Positions 33,001 to 62,968 of a stretch of DNA of 64,000 bases are shown here, in pieces. Position 1 is the first letter of the stretch. Each line of letters opens with the position of its first letter. The stretch is from Owenia fusiformis (taxonomy: Eukaryota > Annelida > Polychaeta > Sabellida > Oweniidae). The stretch spans positions 40,053,375 to 40,117,374 of the forward strand of contig CAIIXF020000005.1 in the NCBI GenBank assembly GCA_903813345.2, in the 5' to 3' direction. The position numbers were made by a program, and so were the translations under genes. Under the pieces are notes generated by a model. That model had not been told where the DNA came from. It made no database searches and saw nothing but the letters and a program-made list of their open reading frames with translations.

Positions 33001-35564
33001 TTCTATCTTTTGATTTCCTTGTCTTTCTCATTTTAGAACTGTCAGACAGGTCATCATCGAAAGTTGAAGAATCGCTGGATGAACTTGTAAAATCAATCAT
33101 TTTATTCTTTTTGTAGCTTTTATGATGTTTGCGCCTGCCTTTTTCACTTCTACCCCTAGTAGCACTACCACTGTATTCATCTGTTTCACTGTCAAAGCTA
33201 CTAGAGTTATAAAGTGCCTTTTTCAGCACCTCAAGACTGCTTGTTATCGCTTGAGCAATTTTATCCTTGTGCTTTCTTTTCTTTTTTGTTTGTTTCCTCT
33301 GTCTGTGCTTCGAGTTTTCTCTATCCTTATCATGTCTTATTTTATGACCTTTTACTTTCTTCCGATTTCTTTTGCTTTGTTGTCTGTTGTCTTCAGAAAC
33401 AGTTATAGAAGAGTCGGAACTATCTGAATAGGAAGTTGAATCATATGATTCTTCTTCCTTATTGGGCTGGTGGCCAAGGAAAAAGTTTGGGTTACCATGT
33501 GAGTATCTGGAATGGGTCTCATTGTCTTTCAGCTTCTATAACAATAAAAACATGGTTATGAAATGCGTCATTTGTGTTATTTTTGTTCTTTTAAAAAGAA
33601 TACATAAAAACACAGCAAATAGACTTTTTAGTGCAGATTTTCCAAAAATCAGTGTCTTCAATCCCATTACAGCATTACTGAGTGGTATCCAAGATTAATA
33701 CGTGGATTCATTAATTAGTTAAATGATAGTCATATATAATGTACCTAGCACCCTTGAAATTTTGGAACGATACAAAATGCTAAACATATGTAAAAAGCTG
33801 TGTTAGATCTGTAGGCCTGGTCATATAAGCATTTGTATTGAAATAATCATAATGAATTAGATGTTCTCCATTGATTTCTTTTCCTGAGTGGTTCATAAAT
33901 TCAAATATTGATCTTGCTTGTTACCTTGATAAACAAAGAAGTGTTTTGAGACAACATGAATAAAGGTCCCTTGACTGGCTTGGGTGGTGAGTCACAATCT
34001 GTTATAAGTTTCCCGGATGCCGCCCAGTTATCAAGACATCTCTGACAATGAAAAAGTGGTCTGGCAACACGTCCTGGGATGTAATCTCGTTTTGTTATCT
34101 ACAATATACATTATTTGGTTTCAGCTTTTTCCCTTTGATAGCATATATTTCATCGGGTATTGCATAAATTCTTGCAGTCTAGCTACAAGCCCTTAGCCTT
34201 GTGTTGTATAGATAAGGGTCCACAGACTAAAATTCTTCAGGGAATTAGGCCTTTATTGACTGATGAGAATGCAGGCCCGTAGCCAGGGGGGGGGGGTTTG
34301 CAGGGTATTCTTTCAAAATCATGCAGTTTTTCACCATTTTGAGCACTTCTCAAGTGATTTTAGCCATATTTGGGCCAAAATTGTCAAATGTGAACCCCCC
34401 CTGGATATTTTTGAAAACTGAACCCCCTTGGCAGATCCTGGCTACGGGCCTGGAATGAATATATTTTTTTCATTGTTAGTCAATTTAAGCTTACATGGTG
34501 TTTCAGATTATCTTATTTCTTGATATAAATGTATGTTGGTCGACATAATTATCAGGGAAAATGTGTACCTCAATGGGTACTCCAATAGAATGGCAGTCAA
34601 GTAGCTGCCTTAGGGACTCATCAATTTTAAGAGGATCATCTTGTATTTCTTCACCACCAGTCTCCAGAATTGTTTCAAAACCAAACTGAATTAAATGAAT
34701 AAAATCAATCATGACAATGGCATAACACAATATAAACATCTAAACATTCAAAATTACTTTGGACTTTTGTGGAAAGGAAAATGATATTTAAATGTCAAAA
34801 TAAAGTATGTGAAGCACAATAACATGCCCTTAGCAAGCTTTTGCCAAGGGAGGGGGCAGTTTTGAAAAGTCCAAGAGGTTTCAAATTAGACAATTTTGTT
34901 TCAAAATCACTTGAAAAATGGTAAATGTATGTAGCCACTGATTGTTCATTACCTGAGTCTTTTGTGATATTACTGGCTCTTTCTTTGGGGGCACTTGGAT
35001 GTCTTGACCAGTTATCTCCAGCTCTGAGTGATCCTGTCCATTGTGGATTGGTTTCAATCGACCAGCGTGAATGATTTCTGGGAATAAGGCCTCCTAAAAA
35101 AATAAGTGAAAATCAAAAGCCAACTGTATCCATGACATCACCATTCCAAGAGTGTAGTAAATGAGTAGCTCAATATAACTATTATTTAGCCTATTGATGT
35201 ATACCCCTTTAGTTGTGCTCGAGCCAGGAACATGGTCATTTTCTCCAATAGAAACACTGACAGACTCTCCCTGAATGACAGCTGGGAGAAACTTCTCCAG
35301 GTCAGAGTTTTCCACATCAAATTTAGCAGGCTTGCCTCGTGTTTGCTAAAACAGAGAAACACTTTTTAGACACTGTATATAAGTTAAGTTTATCAAGGTT
35401 TGAAATATGGCGAGAAAGCCCACATTAAAATCTGATAATGATTATAGACTTGGATTTATCAATAAGCTTACCTTAGAAATGTTCCCTCTTTGTCTGAAAC
35501 GACTGTCATCTTTCTTTTCACCGAATTCAGCTAACTTTGGTAACACAGTTTTTAAAGCTGACAT
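27021..35564 (-). CDS. Unrecognised 1,319-residue low-complexity protein, 16 exons
   Basis: Exons (minus strand): 35564-35472, 35345-35205, 35093-34953, 34685-34569, 34098-33925, 33535-32629, 32065-32000, 31727-31578, 31128-31024, 30903-30578, 30051-29811, 29490-29324, 28966-28702, 28494-28342, 28046-27889, 27776-27021. Every junction has GT-AG and the phases sum to 1,320 codons, so the model is well supported although I recognise no homologue. Residues 1-222 look like a folded region (MSALKTVLPKLAEFGEKK; a CQRC pair near 180). About 225-485 is Ser/Asp- and Lys/Arg/Glu-rich, with likely charged helix. About 485-545 has Gly-Asp/Asn-Gly-x-Phe/Leu repeats (GQNGLFYTGTY, EDGEFITEG, KNGRLHTG, EDGRFY). 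The rest is polar, ending in a Lys/Pro-rich segment (KKPTTAKNRKPKKKQTENK). No signal peptide or membrane span. Function not assignable. Confidence 0.85.
29386..29490 (-). repeat. In-frame tandem repeat in the unknown gene
   Basis: Exon 29490-29324 encodes two adjacent copies of an approximately 12-residue unit (DTTEYAADNETTA), from a 39-bp DNA repeat that keeps the frame. The unit is acidic and Thr-rich, so copy number could vary without breaking the protein. Confidence 0.75.
34272..34452. mobile_element. MITE with CAGGCCCGTAGCCAGG ends and 5-bp duplication
   Basis: 181 bp with near-perfect inverted ends (CAGGCCCGTAGCCAGG and CCTGGCTACGGGCCTG), flanked by the direct repeat GAATG at 34267-34271 and 34453-34457. 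Contains a G-run at 34286-34296. It sits in an intron of the unknown gene and serves as an uninterrupted reference for the nested copy at 57565-61189. Confidence 0.88.
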
Positions 35565-38455: not shown

Positions 38456-39665
38456 TATCCCATCGAACGAAGTTCGGAGGGATATAGGGAACGCCTCCGT
38501 CCGTACGTCCGTACGTACGTACGTACGTCCGTCCGTCCGTCTGTACGTCCGTCCGTCCGTCCGTCCGTCCGTCCGTCCGTCCGTCCGGGCAATAACTCAA
38601 ATACCGTTGGCCCGATTTTGTTCATATTTTGTACACATATACCCTATGGGGGTAGAAGTTCTGCTCGAAAGCCGATTTTCAAAATAGCGGCTCATTTCAA
38701 AATGGCGGCCATTTTAGTGTCGAATTTACAGTAATTTAGGTACAATATGTAAAATTGTAACAGCAATATGTTTTAGATGTAAAAAAATTAAATAGGACAT
38801 TAATAAAGCTAGAAATGTAGATATGAAAGAAGCACATGGCAGCCATCTTGAAAAATGGCGGTCTTTACTCGTTATTTTACGATTTTTGCTGTAACTCGAA
38901 AAGTAGTGGAGCGATTTTGTTCATATTTGGTATGTGAATACTATAAACATTGCACACTGTCTAAAGACACTTTTAGTAGAAGGTGGCCATTTTGAAAAAT
39001 GGCCTCCATTTTTCAAAATGGCCGCCATTTTAACGTATTTTACTATAACCCGAAAAGTAGTGGAGCGATTTTGTTCATATTTGGTATGTGAATACTATAA
39101 GCATGACACACTGTCCTATGACACTTTTGGTAGAAGGCGGCCATTTTGAAAAAAAATTTGAAAAATGGCCGCCATTTAAACATATTTTACTATAACTCGA
39201 AAAGTAGTGAAGCGATTTTCTTCATATTTGGTATGTGAATACTGTAAGCATGGCACACTGTCTAATGACACTTTTGGTAGAAGGCGGTCATTTTTCAAAA
39301 TGGCCGCCATTTTAACGTATTTTACTATAACTCGAAAAGTAGTGTAGCGATTTTGTTTATATTTGGTATGTGAATACTATAAGCACTGTATATACACTGT
39401 CTAATGGCACTTTTGGTAGAAGGTGGCCATTTTGAAAAATGGCCGCCATTTTAACGTATTTTACTATAACTTGAAAAGTAGTGGAGCGATTTTGTTCATA
39501 TTTGGTATGTCAATACTATAAGCATGGCACATGGTCTAATGAGAATGACACTTTTGGTAGAAGGTGGCCATTTTGAAAAATGGCTGCCATTTTTGCTATA
39601 TCCTTCGTTTGTAAAAATGCCATCCATGGCTGTTCGATGGGATTCGCTACGCTTTGGCGTTGCCG
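38456..39665 (+). repeat. Dispersed element with CCGT microsatellite and GGCCGCCATTTT array
   Basis: Starts TTATCCCATCGAACGAAG, followed by about 85 bp of CCGT/ACGT tetranucleotides (38498-38587). It then has about five units of 134-157 bp (38862-39600), each with ACTCGAAAAGTAGTGGAGCG, CATATTTGGTATGTGAATAC, GACACTTTTGGTAGAAGG and GGCCATTTTGAAAAATGGCC. It ends TTCGCTACGCTTTGGCG. A short copy with the same two ends and no array lies at 56411-56635, and a partial 5' end at 51752-51850. Confidence 0.75.
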
Positions 39666-40870: not shown

Positions 40871-43800
40871 ATGGATCAGTATACTATACTAGGCAGGGTG
40901 GGTGAAGGAGCGCATGGAATTGTTTTCAAAGCCAAACATATTGAGGTGAGAAATATTGCATACATTGTTGCATATATCTTGATAATAGACGAGATGCAAG
41001 TGGAAATAATCTTGATTTACGTCATTTAATACTCAAAATTCAGTCAAAGTGATGTCATATTTGAAGTCTACATGTAAAAGTATATCTAGAAATATGGTTT
41101 CAAAAATTGTTTATCAACTTTGAAAATTTAATTTTTTGGGAAAAATTGACTTCTAGTTCGGGTTGATTCCCCATAGACCCAATGTTGCAAAATCAAAAAA
41201 AGTGAAATATCTTTTCTTGTATTGGACAGACAACATTTTCTTTTACTGAACATATTTTAATTTGCATAACTATTAGATACATAAGGGTTATATGAAAATT
41301 GAACCACTAAAACAGATATAATTTAAGTTTAAGGGAACTTTCTACTATACCCGCCATGTTATCTGACCCGAACGAGCCACCTGGCGGTGAAACTGATAAC
41401 TACCTACTCACATCTGCGTTATTGATTTATTGTACTCTTGAGGTATCTTAAAGAAGAATTATGGACAAATGTTTTTCACGCTACTATACCCTAGTAGCAT
41501 ACTACTTGCTAATGTTTACACCCGTTTTAATGCAATATTTAGGCCTATGAAATGTAAAATGATAAATTATAGCCTAATTATCATATTGATCTTGGCCTAT
41601 TTCCAGTAAGGCTAGGCAAATTTAGGTTTAACATTCCAAAAATTGCAACAGTTTTTAAATTAGTCTTACTTTGTATATTGATATCAGTAGAAAAACTTCA
41701 AAAAGTAGAAAATATACATGTTTTTGTTGATTTTAGAGTGGGGCTCTGGTGGCACTGAAGAAAGTTCCCCTGAAGAAGCTTGATGATGGTATACCTAGTG
41801 CAGCACTAAGGTAGGTGACATACTTCATTTAACCTAGCGCAGCATTAATGAATGATTCTGCCTTTAAACTAGAATTCAAGAATTAATTCTTCGAACTCCG
41901 TAATCTACATGTTTAATTGTTATTTGTTATATTCTGTATTTCAGGGAAATCAAGGCACTGCAGGAGATAGAAGACAACCCTTTTGTAAGTATATATACAA
42001 TTAAGAAGACGACAATAAAATTTATTTCTGCATCGCCTCATTTATTTGTATATAAGTCATCGAACAGAACATTAATACTAACTTTGGTACTTATTACAAA
42101 GCTGTGTTGAGTCTAACGAAGCATTGATCTTTAAAGATAAATTGGTATGGCAATCATTGAATATAAAAGGAAAAATCATTTTCATTTTGATACTAATCTT
42201 ATTCTGTTAGTATTTAGGATTTAAATTTTAAAAATATGCTTAAGGAATAAATAACGATAGGCCATTCAGCCATTCAATATGGTGAAATTCAGCATGAGTT
42301 GGTCATTATGTTGTACAAAGCACCAACCGATGGTAAATAAAAAGTACTAGTAGGCTAATGTAAAAGTAACATTGGCAATATTTTAGACTTACGTTAATGT
42401 TTACAACAAAAGCAAAGGACTAAATATATGAATTCTATCTCCTTTTAAAAGCAAATTCCAAACTGAAGATACATTCTAAACAAGACTATATTATCTAACT
42501 TTGAGCCAAAATATAATCTGCAAGTGGTAATAAATCAAGAATACAAAAAATCCTACTGAAGTCTGAACTGGAACTTAAGCAGTTCCTTCATTCTGTCACT
42601 TTGACGTTAAATAGTTACAGTAGTTGGGGAACAGTGATATAATGGGTAGGCTAACTGTTTCTAAATATGTGTTCCAGGTGGTAAAACTGAGGGAGGTCTT
42701 CCCCCATGGTACTGGTTTTGTCCTGGTATTTGATTATATGCTTTCTGACCTTGCTGAAGTGATACGTAACATTGAACGGCCCCTGTCTGAGGCCCAGATC
42801 AAATCCTACATGCAAATGCTGTTAAAAGGTGTAGCTTATTGTCATGAAAACAATATCATGCACAGAGTAAGTACTGCTGTTTTGTTACAAAAATTAAATG
42901 AATAAGTACTATAGTCTTCATGTCATGTGGGATTTTTATATTATATTAGCTGAAAGGCTCGTGGCTCTTTGGAACATTATATGCATGCCATGGTCATCAG
43001 CTGACATGAGAACCACAGTAAATCATGTACAGTGCATATTCGAACACATATCAATATATCAACCAAATCCCTCTCACTTTGACCACGCCTCTTATCCAAA
43101 TCCCTCTCACTGTGAGTACTTTTCTCATCCCAATTTTATAACTCCCATTGAAATGTAAAAACCTGCTAATTTAAACACTTTTGGCAGTCCCAGTGGCATT
43201 TGGATTGGACACAACTGACAGATTTTACTGTAGTTATCTGTTGCCTCTTATTTCATGACATAATGCTACTATAGCAACCAGCACATTTCATTGTATTCTC
43301 ATAACTACATTTTTACGATACTGTATACATATCAGTCACAAAACATAAATTGTATGTTTATGTATTTAAATTATTTTATTAATGTTTCAATTCATAAAAA
43401 AATCATGAGATTGTAAAATATCACTCATATTTAAAAATTGTTGAATGATAGTATCTATAATACAGTATATTACATTGAGCATCCCATTTCCTTTCGAATC
43501 TTGTGATGTTATATGTATGTTGATGGGAAGAACGATTATATTTTCAGGATTTAAAACCAGCTAACTTGTTGATCAGTTCAAAGGGCCATCTCAAGATTGC
43601 TGACTTTGGTCTGGCTCGAGTTTTCCAGAATGACACGGGTCGGCTTTACAGCCATCAAGTAGCTACAAGGTAATGGAAGAATACAATCATTTGCAATTTG
43701 ATTGAAAGTGGTTATAGAAAATTGAGCCAACAGAAAGAAAAATGCATCTTAAAATTCCATTTTTTGAGAAACTTAAATAATGGCACGATACATGTACATT

Positions 43801-56036: not shown

Positions 56037-56404
56037 CAGGCCTGTCAACTTGGGAACACCTAACATGAGTGACTTACAAATGTTGAACACCTGTCTTCCA
56101 AATTTTGGACCCCTTGGCCCAAATCAGAACACTTTGGCCCACATGGGGCTTAAGGACAAAATATTTCGAGATAAATGCGTGACATATACGGTATCCGCAT
56201 GAAAAGTCAGAACGACATGCGTTCGATTTTTTTGGCGTTTGGTTTTGTGCTGTATCGGCTATCACTTTTTTGAAGTTTTTGTACAGTAATATTTTTGCAG
56301 TATTTGCGTGACATATTCTGTCACGCAAAAATAACTGGCGTGACTTCAAATTTTCCAGCAAAAGCGTGATAAATACGCAAATTGCGGGACAGTTGGACGG
56401 CCTG
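56037..56404. mobile_element. MITE with CAGGCCTGTCAACT ends
   Basis: 368 bp. The left end CAGGCCTGTCAACTT and the inverse of the right end (CAGGCCGTCCAACTG) match. It is flanked by a 6-bp direct repeat AGGTAG at 56031-56036 and 56405-56410. The right half shares GTGACATATTCTGTCA and CGTGACTTC with 61420-61521. Confidence 0.7.
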
Positions 56405-56635: not shown

Positions 56636-57564
56636 TTTTGTCAAGTTTAATTTTGATGATAAAATAGTCAAATGTATAATTCAAAAAATGTATTTCAAGA
56701 AATATTGTTTTATAACAGTAATGATTGTTTATCAACTTTGATAATGAGTTGAATGGAGAATGAAATGTTTTTTTCATGTATTTTGATTGTTTTTGACAAA
56801 TTTTGTCAAATTGCAATATTCAGGTAGCAACTAAAATGCTCAAAGAAAAACATTATCATGTAGCAAACTGCCCCTCAAATTCTAGACTGAGATATCTGTA
56901 ATCATTGTCTCAATCTTGTCTTATAACAAATCCTCGGTTATTTTCCGCCTTTTTGCACTGAACGAAACGACCATTACTTTAAAATTTTTGACAATTTGTG
57001 GTTTTTCAGTCCAAAATCCGCATGTTTTCATTAAAAATAGGAGAATGAATCATCTAGTTCTAATTAAGGTACTATAACAAATTGGGTGTGAAACAAATTA
57101 TAGCGTATTCATCGATGAAACGTGTTATAATTACCTGTTTGCTGTGCAATATTTCGTGCAGGCGACATTTATGTTTTCCCGGCAGGAAATTCTGTTTCGC
57201 TTAAGCGAGTAGAGTCCAATCAGTGGTGTTGTCTTATTTTGCTTCACTATGGATCCGTATCAACCAATCAGCGTTGAGATTGTTTATCGCTATCGGAAAT
57301 ATGATGAAAAAAATGAAAAAATATCGGAGTGGTAAGTTCCATTGATTCTATGCGTATGCGATGGAAGGGTTGAAAACTTGAAATGAGATTCATTAGGTAA
57401 ATTTGAGGTTGCAAACATTTGCTCCCGGCCACCCAGGTTTTGGAGCAAAATGTCAAATCAGATAGCAAATTTGCCACTTGCTACTGACCCTAGACTAATA
57501 ATTGTGAACACCTTGGTCCAAAATAGAAATAGAATACCGTGGTCCAAATTTTGGACACCTTGGT
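56636..57564. other. CDK20 intron 9 or downstream, no gene seen
   Basis: No exon recognised; the missing CDK20 C-terminus was sought and not found. 57490-57560 has words (TTTTGGACACCTTGG, GTGAACACC) shared with 56085-56140, so the left half of a second copy of the 56037-56404 family probably sits here. Confidence 0.4.
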
Positions 57565-57662
57565 CAGGCCCGTAGCCAGGATTTGCCAACGGGGGGTTCA
57601 GTTTCAAAAACTTCCAGGGGAGGTTCACATTAGAAAATTTTGGCCAAAACATGGCTAAAATC

Positions 57663-60581
57663 CGGTTGGAAGAAAAGGATGACACCACAAAAGGATGACA
57701 CCACAAAAGGATGACACCATAAAAAGATGACACCACAAAAGGATGACACTAGTAGAAAAAGGATGACCCTTGTAAAATGTTATAAGAAATAGATGACAAT
57801 GCTTGATTTCTATATTTCATAATCCCTTTGAACCAAATACTTTGCTAAATATATGAAATTAGCTTTCACTTATGCAAATGATGAAAATGAGAATAAAGCA
57901 AGAGGAACAATTATAGGAGCTAAGATGAATTAGGGGTTGAGTTGAAAAAGACTATCATCATTGTACAATTATTATTATGAATGCACATTGTAATTTGAGA
58001 AATTCAATAATCTGCCATGCAAATATGCAAAAATAGCTACAAGTCTAAGGAATCTCAAACTGTTATAATCAAAAGCCATTTTGAAATTCAGCTGCCATCT
58101 TAAACAATTTTTTCTTGAGCAGAGGTCCTTTGTCCTCAGCATCAGTATATACAATTTTAACCAAATCATCTTGTATTTGTAATTGTAAACTTGTATAAAG
58201 TAATCAAGGATTACTTTCTTCTATGAAAAATGGTGGCCCTTTTAAAGTTCAGCTGCCATATTTCTTCTCCAGCGGAGCTCCTGTGTCCCTAGTCCCTTGA
58301 AACTAAATGGCCATCTTGAAAATCTCTTATTGAGAAGAGACCCATCGTCCCTCGGCATCAGCATATAAAATAACCCAGATGCGAGTAGAAATAATCTTGA
58401 TTTACGTCATCAAAAATTCAAAATTCAGTCAAAGTAATATCATATTTGAAATCTACATGTAAAATTACATTTAGAAATGTGGTTTTAAAAAGTGTTTATC
58501 AACTTTGAAAAATTAGTTTTCTTTGAAAATGTGACTTCTAGCTCGGGGAGATTCCCCATAGACCCCATGCTATAAAATCACAAAAAATGAAATATCTTTT
58601 CTTTTAGTGGACAGATAATATTTTGCTTTACTGGACATATTTTCATTAGTATAAGTATTAGACACATAAGGGTTATATGAAAATTGAGCCACTTAAATTG
58701 ATAATATTCAAGTTTAAAGGAACTTTCTTATATACCTGCCATGTTATTTGACCCGAATCAGCCACCTGGTGGTGAAACTGGTAACTACCTACTCGCATTT
58801 GGGTAATTGGAACCAAATCAACTATTCTAGTATTTGAGTTACAATTATAAAATAATAAAAGTTACAATTTTACAAAAAATGATGGCCATTTTGAATGGCG
58901 CAGCCATATTGAAATTCCATTTTGACAGAGGTCCTACACCTATAAGGCATAAGCCTATAGAATTTGAACCAAATAAGCTTGTACTAAGTAATCAAGTATT
59001 ACATTCAATTATGAAAAATGGTAGCCATTGTATTAAATAATCAAAGATTACTTTCTTCTATGAGAAATGGTGGCCCTTTTAAAATTCAGCTGCCATATTT
59101 CTTCTCCAGCGGAGCTCCTGTGTCCCTAGTCCCTTGAAACTAAATGGCCATCTTGAAAATCTCTTATTGAGCAGAGACCCATCGTCCCTCGGCATCAGCA
59201 TATAAAATTGGAACCAAATCAACTATTCTAGTATTTGAGTTACAATTATAAAATAATAAAAGTTACAATTTTACAAAAAATGATGGCCATTTTGAATGGC
59301 GCAGCCATATTGAAATTCCATTTTGACAGAGGTCCTACACCTATAAGGCATAAGCCTATAAAATTGAATCAAAGTCAAAAATGAATAAAAATCAACCGGT
59401 ATTTTGTAATCCCTCAGACAAACAAACGAATGGATAGATGGCTTCTCTATATCCATGCAAACTTCATTTGGTAGGATAACAAAATGTGTTTCCCGTATGA
59501 AGGCCAATGGAGTTTCCAACTATATCTTGTCAGACTTTGTGAATTTGCAGAATTGCCTCCTGTCTCCAATTACATCATAAGTAGAATGGTCCGAACAGAT
59601 CCTCTTTTTGAAATACTGTATCTCATCTAAATAAACCTTTTATATTAGATCTAATTTTTTTTATTTTGTTTATATATAATTTGTTGTCGTTCTCTTCCTA
59701 AGTAAGATTAATATGCAGACCTTTCTTGGGAAATGCTTTTCATGATGAAAATATTCAAGAACTGATGAATTAATTCAACTTACAAACGATTATGTAAATT
59801 AAGTCAAGTGTGGTCATTCCCTAAAATTATAAAGCTCTTAGATTGCATGATTAAATAGTTTAAAGGTGTCATCACATGCAATAAACTACTTAAGAAGATT
59901 CATCTTTAGACTGAACCTTGCAAATAGATAACATAGATAGTTAAATAATACAATGAGAAAGAAAGAATACAAATAAACTAACGGAACTATTTCATTGTGA
60001 AATTAATCTAAAATACAACTCATCACATTTTCTACGTAATTATTGAATATTTGCTGAAGCTTGTTTAAAAGTCCATCAACATTTATCAGGAAGGGAAAAT
60101 TCATTGACACTCAGATGCATATCTTTCCTGTAACAATAAATGGGCCTCAACAAATTGCACAAGCATGCAGTAACATTTCCCCATATTTACCTTTTAGTAT
60201 CTACAATGAGACCACCTTTAAGTATGTTCTTCCAAATAATATATGAAAACTAATATTGGATTTGAATTTATTTTTCATAGCTGGCTTCTAAGGTCAAAAA
60301 TGATTAAACAAGAATTAAAATAAAGCATGTTTCAAAACAATTCCATGACAAAACTTGATATCTTATGAACAGGCAAGTGGGACAATCCTGGCCAAACTTG
60401 ATATTTTATGTACAGAACAGTGGAATAGTCTGGTACACCTGATCTTCATTGGGGGTTTAATAGGTACAAGCGACCTTTAGATGTAAACAAACACATCATA
60501 ACAAAGAGTGTGCAAAGTTCAATCTAGTGTCATCCTTTTGTAGTGTCATCCGTTTATAGTGTCATCCTTTTCTTCCAACCG
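57663..60581. mobile_element. 2.9-kb element with GGTTGGAAGAAAAGGATGAC ends and 9-bp duplication
   Basis: Ends CGGTTGGAAGAAAAGGATGA and its inverse are followed inward by tandem AAAAGGATGACACC-type 15-mers on both sides. Perfect 9-bp direct repeat GCTAAAATC lies at 57654-57662 and 60582-60590. No transposase was recognised. The interior has internal duplications: about 58198-58371 repeats at 59036-59207, and about 58806-58960 repeats at 59207-59361. It also carries the 58379-58806 repeat shared with CDK20 intron 1. A 9-bp duplication would suit a Mutator-like element, but this is inference. Confidence 0.85.
58379..58806 (+). repeat. Dispersed repeat, second copy
   Basis: Diverged copy of 40993-41425, carried inside the 2.9-kb element between its internal duplications. 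Confidence 0.7.
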
Positions 60582-60610
60582 GCTAAAATCACTTGAGAAG
60601 TGCTCAAAAT

Positions 60611-61102
60611 CACGGACGTCAAGTAAGTTTCTGGCGAAAGCCGGAGCATAGATTATTTAGAGGACTGGAAACAAGAATGACCTACCTTTTTATTTCCCGA
60701 ATCTCGCCTGAAATTAGCTCATCTTGGTGACTGTAACCTGTATATTTGTATAATAGCGAGTCTTCTTGTATCGCATCTGCCTCAATTTTAAAGTTTAATT
60801 GGTATTTTTAATATGATTTCACTGTTTTTGTGGACTGGTACGATTAAGCCAAGCAAATGGCAGCTGATCTGTACAAAGTACTTTTAGTACTAATTATCGC
60901 AAATGATAATAATTTTGGAAACAAAATTATACTAAATAGATTACTTAGCATCTAAGGTAAGTAAAACTAGATGAACAACTGAGTCAATAGTGATAAATAG
61001 GCCAAAACGAACTGGCAGAATTGAAAAAGACTGCCATCTTGTTTCCAGTCCTCTAAATAATCTATGCTCCAGCTTTCGCCAGAAACGTACTTGACGTCCG
61101 TG
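60611..61102. mobile_element. 492-bp element with CACGGACGTCAAGTA ends and 8-bp duplication
   Basis: The ends CACGGACGTCAAGTA are exact inverted repeats, and pairing continues for about 80 bp (CTGGCGAAAGC-GGAGCATAG, ATTATTTAGAGGACTGGAAA). Flanking 8-bp duplication CTCAAAAT lies at 60603-60610 and 61103-61110. The intact MITE at 34272-34452 shows the empty site (GTGCTCAAAATGGTG on its minus strand), proving insertion. Confidence 0.9.
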
Positions 61103-61194
61103 CTCAAAATGGTGAAAAACTGCATGATTTTGACATTTTTGGCCAGGGGAGTTCGCCGGAACACTGGAATCCCCCTGGCTACAGGCCTGTTGGT

Positions 61195-61521
61195 TCAAAT
61201 TTTATCGCTTATATCAACATTTTGAATACCTCCAATTTTTCGTCTTGCTCCGCTCTCCTTCAAGGGGGGGGGGGTCAGGGACAAGAAAGCAAATGCACAA
61301 CATATTACCAATTCGTGTGAAACTTCCCCACGAACTGTGTTTGATTATTTCGACGTTCGTTTTTTTCGGCGTAAACTGAAACATTTTTGCTTGACAATGA
61401 TTTGGTAAAGTGCGTATTTGTTTGACATATTCTGTCAATCTTAAAAAAACATGCGTGACTTCAATATATCTTTAGCAAATACGTGACAAATATGCAAATT
61501 GCAGGACAAACGGATGGCCTG
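61195..61521. mobile_element. Right part of a second CAGGCC...CAACT family copy
   Basis: TTTGACATATTCTGTCAA, GCGTGACTTCAATATATC and ACGTGACAAATATGCAAATT, ending GGATGGCCTG, match the right half of 56037-56404. Its left half probably lies before 57565, so this copy is the outermost host of the nested insertions. Contains a C/G-run at 61264-61273. Confidence 0.55.
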
Positions 61522-62968
61522 CCATTTCCACAACGAATGTACTAATAATTTTTAATGTGATTTGCTTCAAAATCCAAAAATGTATTTTCTTATTTTCGAG
61601 GATAATCCACCCTGGTACTTCAGGAAGCCATTTATCGTTTAGAATAGAACAAATGGTATTTTAAGTTGGTTATAGCCCCTAGAAAACCTATGAAATAATT
61701 TATTGTGTTGTCTGATCATCATATTTGTTGTTATTGTTATTTTAAGATGTCAGTCAAATCTGGTTTGTCATCATTACCTAACTGCAAAAGTACATTATTA
61801 GCTCAAATGGATGAGGTATTGTAATTGCCCAGTGGTCTGTATGTATGTATGTCTGTCTGTCTCTCCATCCGTCTGTCCGTCCATTTTTATATTACAAGAC
61901 GTCCATCCATCATTGTAAGTATTCCATCAATTTGCTTGAAATTGTACAGGTACTTTAATTTAAAAGTTGTCAATAATGTCTACAAACTTTTACCAAATTA
62001 AGTAGCAAAGATTTAAAATGGAGGCCTATTTTATTGTGGAAAAATCAGGTTTTCGATTCTTTTTGGTCTCCATAAGTATTTGCTTGATATTGTACAGGTA
62101 CATTAATTTATCAATAATGTCTACACATTTAAGTTAAATATGTCATGCATGCGTGGTGTCTCATTAGGGGTTCCATAATGGGCGGGAGTTAACAGCAGAA
62201 GAGGCTTACAAATCCACTCAATTAGGTTCAAATTTTATATGTTGATGTCTGGGGATACAGGAATCCTGTTCAAAAAGGAATTATTTAGATGGCAGCTGAA
62301 TTTCAAAAGGGTCACTGTTTTTCATAAAATAATGTTATCTTTCATAACTTAAATACAGCTAACTAAGTGTAATGTATGTATGTATGTATATATTTATTGC
62401 CCTTTATATAAAGGAGATACATGTATACAATGTAATGATATTAGAGATTTTACATAAACATGAACGAAAGGTTTATGAATCAGTGTAGGAATATGTACAG
62501 TGCACATACTTTTGTAAAAAAAAGTTCAGTCACACTTCAAGTGTTTTAGTCCATTTCAGATATCTGTTCAGCTTCAGAGTTTCATGTTTAGAATGGGAAA
62601 TTTGAAATTTCATGTTGATGTCAATGGGAATCATTATACTCATGTCTGTTGAATACATTCCTGACAATTTTGAAAAAAAGTCAAAAAGACTGTATTATAG
62701 TAAAAGTAAACTACTAAACTTACCATTGCTTCCTACAGAATTGTTGTTTTCTGGAGATATACATGTACTTGTATGTGGTACATGTATATGAAGTTAAAAA
62801 AGAACCGATTTACATGTACTGGCGCTTTTATTATTTTAATAATAGTTATTGTTGATGTATATTTGGTATCCAGATGATGTTTTAGTATCTTCTGGATGAT
62901 TGGTTTGAATTTATGTTTTTACATGGTGACCCAAAAGTGCAGCATTATTTAAATTCCCATTTTACATA
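61522..62968. other. No gene; microsatellite-bearing repeat
   Basis: 61800-61900 has AGCTCAAATGGATGAGG followed by TATG/TCTG/TCCG tetranucleotides, similar in style to the 38456 element. ATGTATGTATGTATATAT at 62372-62390 is another simple repeat. No exon recognised. Confidence 0.4.

Follow-up and report, generated by a model that had tools for sequence, protein, structure and literature searches.

In a 64,000-nucleotide stretch of the genome of the annelid Owenia fusiformis (contig CAIIXF020000005.1, positions 40,053,375 to 40,117,374; hereafter the window), five transposable elements are stacked within about 4 kb (57466-61521), the outermost being interrupted by a second that holds two more, one of which contains the fifth. 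We read the stack as the product of successive insertions of five non-autonomous cut-and-paste DNA transposons, with a probability of about 0.96. The stack is documented directly by its target duplications, by other copies in which the insertion sites are empty, by junctions that occur only once and by families with shared termini elsewhere in the genome. Beyond this, we infer the assignment to superfamilies and a mobilisation of the elements in trans, by transposases whose genes lie at other loci. The list of open reading frames contains no frame longer than 92 codons in 57300-61800; therefore each element was presumably moved by proteins made elsewhere. An earlier note on this DNA had described a nest of four families; sequential insertion stood up to examination, but the families number five, a 436-bp element (58371-58806) having been overlooked.

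In the proposed history, a hAT-like miniature inverted-repeat transposable element (MITE) with the terminal inverted repeat (TIR) CAGGCCTGTCAACT and 6-bp duplications would have landed first and then decayed. A second hAT-like MITE (TIR CAGGCCCGTAGCCAGG, 5-bp duplications) would have entered it at TTGGT. This second MITE would have received a 2.9-kb Mutator-like element that lacks a transposase gene at GCTAAAATC and, 20 bp away from it, a 492-bp element at CTCAAAAT. The 436-bp Spy-like MITE would have landed inside the 2.9-kb element, in one of the two units of a short duplication, where AA and TT flank it. The marks of cut-and-paste transposition in these families are duplications of 6, 5, 9 and 8 bp, respectively, and none for the innermost MITE. 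The order from the outermost MITE through the level-2 MITE to the 2.9-kb and 492-bp elements, with the 436-bp MITE later than the 2.9-kb element, is well supported. Since the 2.9-kb and 492-bp elements are siblings inside the level-2 MITE, nesting gives them no mutual order, and the age order claimed earlier is thus partial. The coordinates are collected in Table 1.

Table 1. Components of the nested stack and their comparators in the window.
Feature	Position	Strand	Basis or remark
Level 1, degraded hAT-like MITE, family TIR CAGGCCTGTCAACT	57466-61521		Family copies cross insertion site; left end uncertain
Comparator, other level-1 family copy, duplication AGGTAG	56037-56404	+	Family alignment
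Level 2, hAT-like MITE, TIR CAGGCCCGTAGCCAGG, 197 bp minus insertions	57565-61189		TTGGT duplication; aligns to 34272-34452
Left target duplication TTGGT, level 2	57560-57564		Exact
Right target duplication TTGGT, level 2	61190-61194		Exact
Comparator, intact level-2 MITE copy with both inner sites unoccupied, flanked by its own 5-bp GAATG duplication	34272-34452	-	
Level 3a, 2,919-bp putative non-autonomous Mutator-like element, tandem 16-bp units in its TIR CGGTTGGAAGAAAAGGATGACAC	57663-60581		9-bp duplication
Left target duplication GCTAAAATC, level 3a	57654-57662		Exact
Right target duplication GCTAAAATC, level 3a	60582-60590		Exact
16-bp unit array, level 3a left end	57673-57749	+	TRF
Inverted 16-bp unit array, level 3a right end	60525-60571	-	TRF
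Level 3b, 492-bp element, 66-bp TIR starting CACGGACGTCAAGTA	60611-61102		8-bp duplication
Left target duplication CTCAAAAT, level 3b	60603-60610		Exact
Right target duplication CTCAAAAT, level 3b	61103-61110		Exact
Level 4, 436-bp Spy-like MITE, ends TAACCCAGATGCGAGTAG / CTACTCGCATTTGGGTAA, between AA and TT	58371-58806		AA/TT flanks; empty sites
Internal duplication unit 1, interrupted by level 4	58191-58973	+	58191-58370 plus 58807-58973 (compared as 58191-58371 plus 58805-58973)
Internal duplication unit 2, level-4 site empty	59028-59373	+	59028-59208 plus 59206-59373

The target duplications TTGGT, GCTAAAATC and CTCAAAAT are all exact where the earlier note had placed them. Both inner elements were removed in silico, each with one copy of its duplication, and what remains, 197 bp, can be aligned over its full length to the MITE at 34272-34452 in reverse complement, with identical sequence across both insertion sites. 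This bears out the claims that the 2.9-kb and 492-bp elements lie inside the level-2 MITE and that an intact copy shows both empty sites. The 16-bp TIRs of this MITE match at 15 positions. Twenty copies drawn from the best 40 of 2,776 candidate places were fetched, and in all of them the 36-base stretch over both inner sites is unbroken, with at most 4 mismatches. Exact 5-bp duplications are present in 15 of the 20 copies and duplications with one mismatch in two more; of the three remaining, the end is perhaps misplaced in L075 and certainly misplaced in L076. A TIR beginning with CAG is a mark of hAT transposons, and the TIR of the level-2 MITE begins in this way. Its 5-bp duplications lie within the range of 5-8 bp given for hAT elements (PMC4482050), and the element is probably a hAT-like MITE.

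The outermost family also has TIRs starting with CAG and duplications, here of 6 bp, within the hAT range, which suggests another hAT-like MITE. Both MITEs are like hAT MITEs with 5- and 6-bp duplications in that their TIRs begin with CAGG and their duplications measure 5 or 6 bp. The outer level was queried with the two MITE flanks joined, the junction falling after query base 105, and 50 matches were obtained among the best 40 of 885 candidate places. In this set, five places besides the window are 68-69% alike to the query in an unbroken match that starts at base 40-46 and ends at 418; shorter matches span the junction elsewhere, the best with 88% over query bases 41-148. Against the copy at 56037-56404, the joined flanks score 220, where 200 letter shuffles reached at most 80.5; for the left flank by itself the score is a weak 59, and 500 shuffles reached up to 52.5. 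The homology of the left side is accepted because other family copies match and align through the junction. Ends of the form CAGGCC.../...GGCCTG with exact 6-bp duplications were found in 10 of 13 family sequences (12 fetched loci and the window copy at 56037-56404), the exceptions being L009, L012 and L018. Nine family loci were aligned with the joined flanks and the copy at 56037-56404: seven cross the MITE insertion site unbroken, L011 is diverged there, L017 is shortened just after it and the window copy is gapped at the site. The earlier suspicion that the MITE splits a CAGGCC...CAACT family copy with its right end at 61521 is confirmed by the family copies that match and align across the junction. 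The left end, which had been put at 57470, is not preserved: homology is clear from about 57500, and 57466 is a possible eroded terminus.

The 436-bp MITE sits in unit 1 of the internal duplication of the 2.9-kb element, and unit 2 shows the same site unoccupied; the halves of unit 1 are 96.7% and 98.2% alike to unit 2. Within the 2.9-kb element, a segment at positions ~707-1150 recurs with 97-99% similarity at 21 other places, mostly without the rest of the element, and at C4:23460872 the rest is present only as nearby pieces of 69-82%. All 20 copies fetched out of these 21 places are preceded by AA and followed by TT, and the 20-mer of the left end, AA included, has 560 exact occurrences in the genome. 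The MITE is absent from all 23 compared loci (19 places) of the 2.9-kb family. Eighteen other fetched places of that family include the region, and all of them pass directly from element position 707-709 to 1143-1153 without it. A pattern for the empty site (AAATTG) matched 17 of the 18, of which 14 read AAAATTGG, two GAAATTGG and one AAAATTGA; it did not match L029. The internal duplication was not seen in other copies of the 2.9-kb family. Relative to the unoccupied sites, the net gain through the insertion is 436 bp, with no target duplication.

Spy transposons, a group of the PHIS superfamily, are described as producing no target duplication and preferring AAATTT or AAWTT (PMC4482050, PMC11304231). 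The 436-bp MITE resembles them, as far as those descriptions go, in its insertion between AA and TT at an AAATTT-like site, in the absence of a net duplication and in its TIRs, and it is probably Spy-like, although readings with a 2-3-bp duplication fit the same sequence. It differs from Spy elements in that the family is linked to no transposase and a duplication of AT or AAT can also be read. Less likely, the MITE belongs to ISL2EU or Pangu, relatives of Spy whose duplications measure 2-3 bp (AT and ANT, respectively). An AT or AAT duplication reads equally well from the sequence, and no transposase is tied to the MITE, no search aimed at a Spy-type DDE transposase having been made; the constant AA and TT in 20 of 20 copies, however, fit the AAATTT/AAWTT preference reported for Spy (PMC4482050, PMC11304231). 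A PIF/Harbinger origin with a TAA duplication was rejected, TAA being missing from the empty sites. An older relative of the Spy-like MITE, 85% similar, lies at 40984-41424 of the window; therefore, this family or its parent was active more than once.

The TIRs of the 2.9-kb element match at 51 of 55 positions, and 53 TIR matches of its family (at most 2 mismatches) were found in the 498-Mb genome. Exact 9-bp duplications flank 18 of 19 other copies and an exact 8-bp duplication the remaining one; the count was read from the TIRs, with L102-L105 replacing four of L019, L022, L025, L028, L033 and L036, and with L106 added. Among the listed frames of 60 codons upward, the element has none of at least 100 codons. 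The genome contains eight matches to the MULE (Mutator-like element) transposase domain PF10551, and four of these loci were fetched. Inverted arrays of 15-16-bp units border three of them (L110, L111 and L113, not L112), whose open frames around the domain comprise 422, 599 and 617 codons, respectively. By eye, L111 has GTTTGAAAG at either side and L113 has GTACATAG; when exact duplications of 8-9 bp were sought by script, neither was reported, only matches within the L113 array. None of the eight PF10551 matches is near any of the 53 TIR places of the 2.9-kb family.

MULE target duplications are given as 8-11 bp, mostly 9 (PMC6446971), a range that includes the 9 bp seen here. By a criterion of our own, the element also shares its TIR architecture with transposase-bearing MULEs of the same genome. 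Judged on duplication length and end architecture, it looks like a non-autonomous Mutator-like element. It is unlikely that it belongs to another superfamily with 8-9-bp duplications, e.g., Merlin, and that its likeness to MULEs is convergent. Such an origin would agree with the lack of a MULE transposase between the family's TIRs or near the 53 listed TIR places, and with a resemblance to the genome's MULEs in architecture only, not in sequence; the 9-bp duplications in 18 of 19 copies and the terminal inverted 16-bp unit arrays, like those of three of the four fetched MULE loci, argue for a Mutator-like element instead.

More tentatively, the autonomous and non-autonomous elements might form a distinct animal lineage of the Mutator/Foldback type with ends made of inverted 15-16-bp tandem arrays, in which the 2.9-kb element would be one non-autonomous family and the array might offer several transposase binding sites per end. 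The available description of Tm1, a Mutator/Foldback element of root-knot nematodes, reports 9-bp duplications and composite TIRs of 13-15-bp repeated motifs, as in the 2.9-kb element (PMC3169594). The terminal motif CGGTTAA of Tm1 resembles CGGTTGG of our element, whereas the 16-bp units here are of another sequence and no transposase is present (PMC3169594). Rehavkus elements, relatives of MULEs, are likewise described with 9-bp duplications, a minisatellite and TIRs; their minisatellite precedes the 3′ TIR, whereas the arrays of the 2.9-kb element form part of both TIRs (PMC6446971).

Two copies of the 2.9-kb family, L030 (C4:16854734-16856855) and L031 (C4:16646293-16648414), are of equal length, lie about 208 kb apart and both have the 9-bp duplication GTATACGCA; they probably represent one segmental duplication and not two insertions. 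Two stretches of the window, 62221-62357 and 38615-38715, resemble internal repeats of the 2.9-kb element at about 70-81%; they may be what is left of other family members, or a repeat unit in common.

The TIRs of the 492-bp element match at 64 of 66 positions. Among the best 40 of 395 candidate places, the family is 92-100% similar, the window copy included, and the first 26 TIR bases have 193 matches in the genome with at most one mismatch. Copy numbers drawn from such ranked lists of places are minimum values for every family. Exact 8-bp duplications were found in 16 of 20 fetched copies; two others have one mismatch, one has 7 bp and one has none. P elements make 8-bp target duplications and have CA...TG termini. 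The 492-bp element shows both features, which fit hAT and other superfamilies too, and its superfamily is left open. At L097 (C2:11034947-11039380), 4.4 kb separate two TIRs of this family; the frames there are repetitive, and no recognised transposase was found in the three frames scanned.

Two explanations dispense with successive insertion. That part of the stack is an assembly chimera of sequences from different places is very improbable: repeat-rich sequence is prone to misassembly, but exact duplications at three levels and family termini cut to the base are unexpected for chimeric joins. Least credible of all, and rejected here, is a 3.6-kb composite element moving as a whole: its ends do carry TIRs and a 5-bp duplication, but each junction of an inner element (2.9-kb or 492-bp) with the MITE occurs once in the 498-Mb genome, in this window, the inserts are absent from all 20 fetched MITE copies and the component families occur alone elsewhere with their own duplications. 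The junctions were searched with one 24-base pattern each at no more than 2 mismatches, and the reversed patterns used as a control gave no match for either. The earlier note had proposed this search for further 3.6-kb copies, together with a genome search for each family; no second copy of a junction appeared, the families were found elsewhere with duplications of their own and sequential insertion stands.

Divergence from the family consensus was compared across the five levels. Uncorrected values for the window copies are 24.1% for the outermost element, 13.0% for the MITE, 3.1% for the 492-bp element, 2.4% for the 2.9-kb element (over its last 1.2 kb) and 1.1% for the 436-bp MITE, so that divergence falls with nesting depth. 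The samples comprised all 20 loci of the 492-bp family and all 20 of the 436-bp family, 18 of 20 MITE loci, 15 of the 18 first-fetched 2.9-kb loci and 9 of 12 outer loci, the rest being partial or without clear ends. For the other copies, median divergence (Kimura two-parameter) is 2.2% for the outermost family, 2.9% for the MITE, 0.8% for the 492-bp, 3.4% for the 2.9-kb and 0.7% for the 436-bp family; these medians alone do not yield the nesting order.

Several observations weigh against the history of successive insertions proposed here. The order of divergence is partly built in by sampling, because the 492-bp, 2.9-kb, 436-bp and outermost families were sampled at the places most similar to the window copies, and the MITE family at those most similar to the copy at 34272. 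The other MITE copies (median 2.9%) and 492-bp copies (0.8%) lie below the respective window copies. The outermost copy has neither a clear left TIR nor a 6-bp target duplication, both of which were looked for, and the six bases preceding 57466 do not match the CCATTT that follows 61521. From 58140, unit 1 of the internal duplication differs from unit 2 by 10.3%, and unit 2 differs from L019 by 2.8%. The borders are thus not clean, and the two units may go back to simple tandem duplication or to exchange with a different copy, before or after the arrival of the 436-bp MITE. In addition, no transposase with matching TIRs was found in searches that were incomplete.

These searches covered longer TIR pairs and known transposase loci. 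Between the longer TIR pairs of the 492-bp (L097-L101) and 2.9-kb (L102-L106) families, no frame exceeds 181 codons. Of 19 frames with at least 80 codons, 10 were scanned, and the three that matched anything did so below the cut-off and to non-transposase families. The genome holds 138 hAT transposase loci (PF05699) and 11 P loci (PF21788). No TIR of the stack was present in any of the 15 transposase loci (MULE, P and hAT) checked, among them eight of the hAT loci, about 3 kb each, and three of the P loci; in this the two MITEs differ from hAT MITEs, as a hAT transposase with their TIRs is absent from the eight loci.

Nested structures of this type are ordinary in animal genomes. The relative dating applied here follows the same logic as the published accounts of TRANScendence (PMC5657132) and REANNOTATE (PMC2672092), in which an interrupted element is older than the interrupting one; judged from those accounts, our case is not different in kind and concerns five DNA-transposon families in one 4-kb locus. 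Unit 2 of the internal duplication provides, within the same locus, an empty site for a MITE that leaves no target duplication and would escape a search based on duplications alone. For five DNA-transposon families of one genome, the locus shows in part, and with good support, the order in which they were active.

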